NCBI GenBank assembly: GCA_947454395.1
Contig: CANGLG010000002.1
Coordinates: forward strand, 1 to 37,067
Source: Flavobacteriales bacterium
GTDB taxonomy: Bacteria > Bacteroidota > Bacteroidia > Flavobacteriales_D > Crocinitomicaceae
Direction of reading: 5' to 3'
DNA length: 37,067 nt
In this document: positions 25,999 through 28,446 of the stretch, in pieces
Position numbering within the stretch: position 1 is the first letter of the stretch
How the letters are laid out: the number at the start of each line of letters is the position of its first letter
The notes under the pieces: model-generated
Seen by the model: only the letters and a program-made list of their open reading frames with translations
What the model was told of the DNA's origin: nothing
The model's database searches: none
Translations under genes and position numbers: made by a program

Positions 25999-27363
25999 AT
26001 GCTTATGAAAAGAATTTTATTGTCATTCACGTTGTTATCTGCAACATGTAATGCTTTTTCTCAATTAAACCCGGGAATTACATCTTGGTTGCAAAATAAC
26101 ACGGCAACTGGTAGTTATTACGTCTCTGGAAATTCAACTGCGATTCCAAATAATATTTTAGTCAATTGTCAATCCGTTCAATACTCAACGAACTGGGTTT
26201 ACGTAACAACAACTGGTGTTCCGGCGTATGTTACCGGTCCATTTTTAGATGGGAATCCTTCGCAAACTCAAAATCAGAATGCAATTTTCAAAATTCCTTT
26301 GAACCCAACTCAAAATACAGGAACCCTTACCTCAACTACAGGAGGAAATATTGGAATCTTCATAAATGGAGTTGCTCTTTTTGACTACCGAGATGGTGTT
26401 GCATGGAATACAAGCACTAATTCTCTTTGTGGAGGGTTACCTGGAATGTCTCCATGTCCTGGAGGGCCTGGTACATCACAGTCTTGGAATAGAGATGCAG
26501 TTCGTGCTGAAAAAGCTGGTTTTGACTGTGCGAAAGGACATCCTGCAAATGGAAACTACCACCACCATCAAAACCCAAGTGCTTACAAACTTGATTTAAG
26601 TGTAATTTCAACAGTTTGTAATCTATATGATGCAGATGGTCTTTATGCGATTGACTCAACAATACATTCACCATTAATTGGATTTTCTTATGACGGGTTC
26701 CCAATTTACGGAGCATATGGATATAAAAATGCCGATGGGACTGGAGGAATTACAAGAATAAAATCGGGTTATCAGTATAGAAATATTACAGATAGAACTG
26801 TTTGGGCAGATGGAACGGATGTATCAGATGGACCTTCCGATTTCACAACTTACCCATTGGGATATTTCAGAGAAGACTATGAATTTGTTTCTCATGCGGG
26901 ACAAGAAGATTACTTGGATGCTCACAATGGTCGATTCTGTGTGACACCTGAATATCCAAATGGTATCTATTGTTATTTTGCAACAGTGGATGAAAATTGG
27001 AACTCGGCTTATCCATATGCTGTTGGACCCTATTTTTATGGTGTAAAAACAGCAGCAAAAGTTACTAGTATTACTGAGACAGTAACAACCTATACATCTC
27101 CTACTTCAGGATTGGGCGAAATAGATGATTTGAATTTATCAGTATTTCCTAATCCAGCAAATGAGCTTTTAATCCTTCAAGTGAATGGCCTTAATAAAAA
27201 AGACATTGAAGTAGAGTTGTTTGACATTACAGGGAAATTAGTAGGGAAACAAAGAATTCTGCAAGGAAGTACATTAACTTATTTTGATGTTTCAACGCTG
27301 TACTCAGGCATTTACTTTTTGAAAGCTGAAAATAAAACATTTGAAGTAAAGATTGGTAAATAA
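25999..27363 (+). CDS. YHYH-domain secreted protein with T9SS type A C-terminal sorting domain
   Basis: 454 aa; signal peptide, GNYHHHQNP (26557-26568 = YHHH), LIGFSYDGFPIYGAYGY, YFREDYEFV..LDAHNGRFCVTPEYPNGIYCYFAT, and C-terminal LSVFPNPANELLILQV...YSGIYFLKAE sorting tail. Confidence 0.85.
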   Translation: MLMKRILLSFTLLSATCNAFSQLNPGITSWLQNNTATGSYYVSGNSTAIPNNILVNCQSVQYSTNWVYVTTTGVPAYVTGPFLDGNPSQTQNQNAIFKIPLNPTQNTGTLTSTTGGNIGIFINGVALFDYRDGVAWNTSTNSLCGGLPGMSPCPGGPGTSQSWNRDAVRAEKAGFDCAKGHPANGNYHHHQNPSAYKLDLSVISTVCNLYDADGLYAIDSTIHSPLIGFSYDGFPIYGAYGYKNADGTGGITRIKSGYQYRNITDRTVWADGTDVSDGPSDFTTYPLGYFREDYEFVSHAGQEDYLDAHNGRFCVTPEYPNGIYCYFATVDENWNSAYPYAVGPYFYGVKTAAKVTSITETVTTYTSPTSGLGEIDDLNLSVFPNPANELLILQVNGLNKKDIEVELFDITGKLVGKQRILQGSTLTYFDVSTLYSGIYFLKAENKTFEVKIGK

Positions 27364-27497
27364 GAACTAATTCAAATTCTGGTTAACTATAATGTTCAGA
27401 TAAATCTAACTAATATTCGTTGAAACTTTCTCAATATTCATTGAAAAAAAATGAATCAAATTAATAATCTATATTCGTTAAAGAAATAAGGAGATAA

Positions 27498-27622
27498 TAG
27501 GACACTTCTTATGTTATTAAGTTGATTTGCTGCTTGGAGAGGCAGTTTCATTTTCTAGTTTGATAAGAGTTTTATAGTTTTTAATCAACGCCCTCAAAAA
27601 GGATAATACATAAGAAGTTCCT
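27498..27622 (+). ncRNA. Candidate structured RNA: 19-bp closing stem, 7-bp internal stem and 6-bp GGAG-loop hairpin (6S-like shape, identity unproven)
   Basis: 27499-27519 (AGGAcACTTCTTATGTtATTA) pairs with 27604-27622 (TAATACATAAGAAGTTCCT) with two 1-nt bulges; inside GTTGATT (27521-27527)/AATCAAC (27583-27589) and CTGCTT-GGAG-AGGCAG (27530-27545). No supporting ORF. The strand is inferred. Confidence 0.5.
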
Positions 27623-27680
27623 GTTTCCTATACTCTACTTCCGAAAGAACCACTCAGACTTTAAAGTCTACTATTACGAT

Positions 27681-27710
27681 AAAGGGCTATTACGGCCCTT
27701 TATTTATTTT
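27681..27710 (+). terminator. Rho-independent terminator between the YHYH/ncRNA region and the convergent cyclase gene
   Basis: AAAGGGC-TATTACG-GCCCTTT followed by ATTTATTTT; overlaps the stop of the minus-strand cyclase. Confidence 0.6.
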
Positions 27711-28446
27711 CTATCTTATACAAAACTGGTCTACTCGGACTTGCATCATTTTCAAAAGGAGCTACTTGTAATTCTAAAATATAGTTCCCATCTTCAATTT
27801 GTGAGTCTACGAATATTAACTCCGTAATTGTTCTATTGAAATTAGGATTTCTTGGAACTTCCCAAAAAGCATGATGAAATGCAAGTGCACCTCCGTCAGA
27901 TTCCCTATCAACCGAGGGCAAGTCGATTAATAAATGATCAACTTTTAATTCATTTAACAATTCAATCACCGAAAGATCAATATAGGCAGGATTCGAATTA
28001 GAAAAATCTTTTGCTGTTTTATCTGAATTATTAGGAAGAGTTCGAATAATAATTGCCTCCGAAAATTCAGAATCAATCTTCCCTTTAAAATGAGATGGGA
28101 AAATAACAGAATCGCCATTGCCAATTAAATCCGGTTCAACAGTAATTAATGTTGCTTTAAAAAAATATTTTTTTAAGTGTTGATTTACTGAAAAAACTTC
28201 TTTGGTGATGTGACCGCAACATTCCGTGTGCGTACCATGTCCATGTGGATTAAAGAAAATATTTCTAAAGTTCACAGTTCCTCCTTCTGCAACACTACCT
28301 AAAAAGCCATTGGCCCGAACGGGCTCAAATTTTGGGGGATCTACATACCACGCGCGGAGATTTTCTTCCCCAGAGCGTAACCCAATAGAAATATCCAAAG
28401 GATTATTTGTCTCTATATAATTGTTGTTATCGATAAAAAAGCGCAT
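27700..28446 (-). CDS. Cyclase-family protein (kynurenine formamidase/KynB-like fold)
   Basis: 248 aa; PLDISIGLRSGEENLRAWYVDPP, metal-site motif HGHGTHTECCGHI, HLLIDLPSVDRESDGGALAFHHAFW; no signal peptide. Confidence 0.85.
   Translation of the reverse strand: MRFFIDNNNYIETNNPLDISIGLRSGEENLRAWYVDPPKFEPVRANGFLGSVAEGGTVNFRNIFFNPHGHGTHTECCGHITKEVFSVNQHLKKYFFKATLITVEPDLIGNGDSVIFPSHFKGKIDSEFSEAIIIRTLPNNSDKTAKDFSNSNPAYIDLSVIELLNELKVDHLLIDLPSVDRESDGGALAFHHAFWEVPRNPNFNRTITELIFVDSQIEDGNYILELQVAPFENDASPSRPVLYKIENK

Follow-up and report, generated by a model that had tools for sequence, protein, structure and literature searches.

A predicted small RNA gene and its surroundings

The window, that is, the whole stretch of 37,067 nucleotides analysed here, contains a gene (25999-27363) for a protein that has a YHYH domain and ends in a type IX secretion tail; the gene lies immediately 5′ of the element described below. 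The YHYH gene ends at 27363 and is followed, after a gap that we measure at ~336 bp, by a cyclase gene on the minus strand (27700-28446), a convergent neighbour that is kept on the 3′ side of the element in many genomes. Comparative analysis identifies between the two genes a structured small RNA gene of ~223 nt (~27484-27706, +). By the same sequence comparisons this small RNA is previously uncatalogued and is conserved within a single family of aquatic bacteria. Its 5′ end is best set at ~27484, from which the transcript would start with GAAATAAGG. The bounds of the feature should also take in the promoter, from ~27393. The elements recognised at the locus are as follows.

27393-27399 (+): distal LytTR-type box TGTTCAG, at -91 from the RNA 5′ end (21-bp period; 0 expected in window shuffles)
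27414-27421 (+): middle LytTR-type box TATTCGTT, at -70 (21-bp period)
27435-27442 (+): proximal LytTR-type box TATTCATT, at -49 (most conserved of the three; 86/95 distinct copies)
27470-27477 (+): -7 promoter element TATATTCG (Bacteroidota TAnnTTTG with one mismatch)
27484-27706 (+): structured small RNA gene, ~223 nt, from the predicted 5′ end to the terminator (conservation, covariation, fold)
27484-27494 (+): 5′ tail AAATAAGGAGA (nearly invariant within the genus)
27499-27519 (+): P1 closing stem, 5′ arm AGGACACTTCTTATGTTATTA (8/19 pairs with double-sided compensatory change)
27521-27527 (+): P2 inner stem, 5′ arm GTTGATT (3/6 pairs with double-sided change; cognate-versus-swapped arm test)
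27530-27545 (+): P3 hairpin CTGCTT-GGAG-AGGCAG (invariant in most genera; pairing predicted)
27546-27582 (+): near-invariant, mostly unpaired core TTTCATTTTCTAGTTTGATAAGAGTTTTATAGTTTTT, ~37 nt, presumed interaction region (cross-genus conservation; folds)
27583-27589 (+): P2 inner stem, 3′ arm AATCAAC (covariation; cognate-versus-swapped arm test)
27604-27622 (+): P1 closing stem, 3′ arm TAATACATAAGAAGTTCCT (covariation)
27656-27669 (+): small hairpin or palindrome AGACTTTAAAGTCT (conserved in part of the genus)
27678-27704 (+): intrinsic terminator, hairpin GATAAAGGGC-TATTACG-GCCCTTTAT with T-rich tail

A preliminary description had proposed a structured intergenic RNA here, built on a 19-bp long-range stem, an internal GTTGATT/AATCAAC stem, a CTGCTT-GGAG-AGGCAG hairpin, a palindrome at 27656-27669 and a terminator-like hairpin, and every helix it listed is found in the sequence where it had been placed. 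The long-range stem is P1, in which AGGACACTTCTTATGTTATTA pairs with TAATACATAAGAAGTTCCT across 84 nt; the internal stem is P2, and both covary strongly. The proposal of a structured intergenic RNA is strongly supported by covariation, family-wide conservation, and the presence of a promoter and a terminator. One element did not hold up: the stretch 27590-27603, described as an open bubble, belongs to a variable 3′ hairpin region that has no conserved bubble. The upstream regulatory repeats and the two-component connection treated below had no place in that description.

The region 27480-27720 (+) folds with a predicted energy of -58.3 kcal/mol (z -3.15; equalled by 2/200 dinucleotide shuffles), and the RNA proper, 27484-27706 (+), stands out further (z -3.81; 0/200), while the minus-strand fold is less stable relative to shuffles (z -2.16). 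Two terminator-like sites are seen versus 0.1 expected, the second being the GGAG hairpin. Comparison of copies revealed no conserved ORF within the RNA, and the core differs in length by single nucleotides between copies.

Covariation, conservation and distribution

Support for the fold comes from 23 genus sequences, in which 8 of the 19 P1 pairs and 3 of the 6 P2 pairs change on both sides, a level that 0/500 shuffles reached; all covariation measures collapse once the partner strand is slid by 1-3 nt. The arms of a given copy also pair better with each other than with swapped arms (P<=0.0002 for each of P1 and P2) in 41 family and 53-54 genus sequences, where for the genus set undefined energies distort the P1 means and the P2 arms overlap P1. 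Intermediates with U-G and G-U pairs favour the plus strand. The P3 hairpin CTGCTTGGAGAGGCAG is almost invariant between copies, and because it hardly varies its pairing is predicted, with no covariation support. A second helix within the core (P5) showed 0 double changes, and hence no claim is made for it. The fold common to the family consists of P1 and P2, a head that carries the GGAG hairpin and the unpaired core, and a further hairpin on the 3′ side. The core, UUUCAUUUUCUAGUUUGAU(UA)AAGAGU-UAAYAGUU, is nearly invariant across genera, and the 3′ part of the RNA varies between lineages.

Rfam 15 gives 0 matches in the window at the gathering level, with matches appearing only at E<=10 and at chance level, so that the suggestion that the RNA might be something new is strongly supported. 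Its distribution is narrow. A DNA search of 58 relatives recovered the element in most genomes of the genus (34 searched), with no convincing match in other families. A 20-nt motif of the core, searched for exactly in GTDB species genomes, occurs in 55 stretches, almost all of them under the titles Crocinitomicaceae or Flavobacteriales. Of the few with another organism name, L049 (Pelagibacteraceae) alone was without the RNA by model search. The covariance model R1 found 141 positives among 393 genomes of the order, all from the window's own family, comprising 71/75 members of the genus and eight other genera, the family name Crocinitomicaceae being taken for relatives from record titles. The core-only model R2 was confined to the same family in 388 genomes of the class, save one marginal match (E 0.009). 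No RNA was therefore found in other families by R1 (393 genomes) or, apart from that marginal match, by R2 (388 genomes), in searches run with stricter filters under which weak matches can be lost and on genomes that are largely MAGs. A phage origin was rejected on 0 exact matches in viral contigs.

Some genomes carry tandem copies ~300 nt apart, with four matches in G343. Arrays of 2-4 copies spaced ~270-480 nt apart are present in marine relatives (L020-L023, L026, L053, L074, L077, L081, L082). The copy nearest the cyclase gene, the third or 'c' type, has no LytTR boxes and an altered 5′ half of the core, and such copies show compensatory P1 changes (CTTCTCACGC/GTGTGAGAAG), a pattern which suggests that they may be diverged paralogues. 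Individual modules have also been lost: the GGAG hairpin in L028, L029 and L210, the core in L025, L027, L030, L031 and L209, and the GGAG of the tail in L127 and L128. As some copies lack the GGAG hairpin and others the core, no single module is universal. In G133 the core is kept and the GGAG hairpin lost; in G095 the core is gone, and by eye a P1-like stem and terminator apparently remain downstream of a LytTR gene.

Promoter boxes and a LytTR-type two-component system

Upstream of the RNA the window carries the direct repeat T[AG]TTCAT at 27393, 27414 and 27435, a period of 21 bp, where 0 are expected by chance. Alignment of 95 distinct copies on their 5′ ends showed T[AG]TTCA boxes at ~-49, -70 and -91, followed by a Bacteroidota-type -7 element, with TAnnTT[TA][GA] present in this interval in 70 of the 95. 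Pairs of T[AG]TTCA exactly 21 bp apart were observed 79 times in these copies versus 0.015 expected in shuffles; many a/b copies have the -49 box alone. The 21-bp period of the boxes matches that of LytTR binding sites, in which repeats of 9 bp are separated by spacers of 12 bp (PMC2766830). On the basis of the spacing a LytTR regulator was suspected before the neighbouring genes were inspected.

The neighbours proved consistent with this suspicion. In g24, g27, g55 and g58 a gene for a LytTR-domain response regulator lies ~100-180 bp 5′ of the RNA on the same strand, and wherever the flank extends far enough it is preceded by a histidine kinase gene. The window's genome encodes a LytTR ortholog (63% identical) together with a TPR/His_kinase partner at G000:C8, unlinked to the RNA. 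Since the orthologous pair sits elsewhere, the linkage appears to have been lost in the window's genus and the boxes kept. In the window's genome it is the YHYH gene that occupies the place of the LytTR gene upstream of the RNA.

In those family genomes that were checked for the RNA as well as for a LytTR ortholog (threshold >303 bits), the RNA is present in 41/47 with the ortholog versus 0/18 without it (Fisher 2.7e-11, with no correction for phylogeny). The density of double boxes is 0.45 per Mb where the genus bears the regulator versus 0.11 in the other genera (P 2e-9), and 0.35 per Mb in regulator-bearing genera once the RNA's own sites are removed (P 6e-6). Several of the other genes with double boxes resemble secreted or surface proteins.

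Further observations concern the wider set of boxes and regulators. A double box lies upstream of a sigma-70-like gene in 4/29 congeneric genomes, including the window's own; this gene of 289 aa (L170, at G000:C14:4131-4997 on the minus strand, L171, L172 and L293-L321) is represented by two paralogues per genome. In G059, near-identical double-box promoters (TATTCATCTAGAA[AG]CACAAAATATTCATT) precede several related genes (L182, L183), which look like a paralogous, co-regulated set. The G103 and g28 genomes (L200-L206) have a LytTR homolog in the equivalent place with no recognisable RNA downstream, and a 351-bp gap remains in G103.

Competing explanations and a proposed regulatory circuit

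From sequence and gene context the element is probably a stand-alone regulatory sRNA that serves as the output of a LytTR-type two-component system. Among the alternatives, the one that fares best, and which we consider unlikely, is an RNA that sequesters protein in the manner of CsrB or RsmY, its GGAG loop and AAGGAGA tail titrating an RNA-binding protein. The strong conservation of GGA motifs in both the apical loop and the 5′ tail would fit such a role. However, there are only about two motifs, the tail GGAG is lost in L127/L128 and the loop GGAG in L028/L029/L210, and CsrA is not known from most Bacteroidota.

Less probable still is that the RNA is the 6S RNA of the family, diverged beyond the reach of the Rfam models and binding RNA polymerase by mimicking an open promoter. 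The preliminary description had likened the outline to 6S RNA and named 6S-Flavo (RF01685), a family that occurs in Bacteroidota (PMC2864571). Several points speak for it: the RNA stands alone, its closing stem is long, most genomes have a single copy, and in these genomes the models find no 6S RNA and its seat looks vacant; the same double box also lies at the second sigma-70-like gene in the 4/29 genomes noted above. Against this, the RF01685 covariance model gives no match at the locus at the gathering score or at E<=10; its best match in the window's own genome scores 18.3 bits against a cut-off of 85 and lies at another place, and no convincing match was found in the window's genus. The 6S model RF00013 matched 0/58 relatives, with controls such as E. 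coli positive. The head is branched with invariant loops, lacking the 6S rod and central bubble, and the promoter bears regulator boxes. The RNA is, unlike a housekeeping 6S RNA, missing where the LytTR ortholog is missing, its patchiness following that of the regulator, and it forms tandem arrays of 3-4 copies in marine relatives. The 6S resemblance is thus not supported, since both models fail and the fold is branched. Separately, members of family f3 (L032, L033, L034) match 6S-Flavo below threshold (38-46 bits against a cut-off of 85) and possibly hold diverged 6S RNAs of another family of the order; on inspection by eye the matches in L032 and L033 look unrelated.

We regard it as very improbable that the RNA acts in cis on a downstream gene, as a riboswitch, attenuator or leader: it is structured with a terminator, and in g24 a same-strand ORF does come downstream, but the next gene is the convergent cyclase in the window and most genera and no downstream same-strand gene is conserved. 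Least probable of all is a conserved DNA structure, such as a recombination or protein-binding hairpin, for which the intergenic position, inverted repeats and tandem copies might speak, against G-U pairs retained on one strand, minus-strand matches of ~30 bits or less versus ~146 for the same copies, and a rightly placed promoter and terminator.

The two-component output model can be drawn as a series of steps. A TPR-containing histidine kinase would phosphorylate the LytTR response regulator, which would bind the two or three direct repeats of 21-bp period at ~-49/-70/-91 and so activate the TAnnTTTG promoter of the sRNA. Transcription would run from 27484 to ~27706, stopping at the intrinsic terminator, and the RNA would fold into the P1 closing stem, the P2 inner stem and a branched head showing the GGAG loop and the long unpaired core. 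The loop and core would then work in trans, with pairing to mRNAs the likeliest means. The half of the model leading from kinase through regulator to sRNA draws on the repeats, the adjacency in several genera and the co-occurrence, all shown computationally like the conserved structure, and on the density of boxes; transcription, regulator binding and the direction of control are inferred. The half leading from sRNA to targets, and with it action in trans, is inferred from the free-standing gene, the terminator and the invariant unpaired core. One such mode, antisense pairing of the core at start codons (AUCAAACUAGAAAAUGAAA), was rejected after a scan of 58 genomes for near-perfect complements with one mismatch allowed: matches were about as common in genomes that lack the RNA, inspection of the list showed no gene that recurs, and no conserved mRNA target emerged.

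Most known circuits in which a response regulator controls an sRNA come from Firmicutes and Proteobacteria. In Staphylococcus aureus the LytTR regulator AgrA activates a structured regulatory RNA, RNAIII, through direct repeats. The combination of LytTR regulator, direct repeats and structured RNA is shared here, with control proposed from sequence, whereas RNAIII exceeds 500 nt and codes for a peptide, the present RNA being ~223 nt with no conserved ORF. A closer parallel in organisation is FasX of group A Streptococcus, a 205-nt sRNA for which a ComE-like regulator is the proposed activator (PMC12675982). In FasBCA-FasX and in g24, g27, g55 and g58 alike, histidine kinase gene(s), response regulator and sRNA follow in that order, the sRNA is ~200 nt and is the effector (proposed so here), and the promoter of the sRNA is preceded by a proposed site for the regulator. 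The phyla differ, and it is organisation that is compared, sequence homology not being implied; in the system described here, moreover, many copies have three boxes, the RNA is branched and its long core near-invariant, and in the window's genus the genes are unlinked. Within the Flavobacteriales, Rfp18 and other structured trans sRNAs of Flavobacterium psychrophilum likewise have no Rfam match (PMC9723704), a likeness by description only, and the text of that paper mentions no LytTR link. In the open-access literature a phrase search found nothing on noncoding RNAs of Crocinitomicaceae.

The best reading is a new RNA family of the two-component-sRNA kind. A broader reading, for and against which we find the case evenly balanced, is that this Crocinitomicaceae-restricted family serves as effector of a LytTR system whose controlled genes encode secreted or surface proteins, with a sigma factor among them in some species. 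It would then be the counterpart in Bacteroidota of FasBCAX and agr-RNAIII, probably of independent origin, and its marine tandem paralogues would have diverged in promoter and core. An uncatalogued RNA family in Bacteroidota is thereby provided with a probable regulator, putative binding sites and a kinase, and because these can be named the chain from signal through regulator and sRNA to target is directly testable. Given how well the core is conserved between genera, a target or protein partner should be findable.
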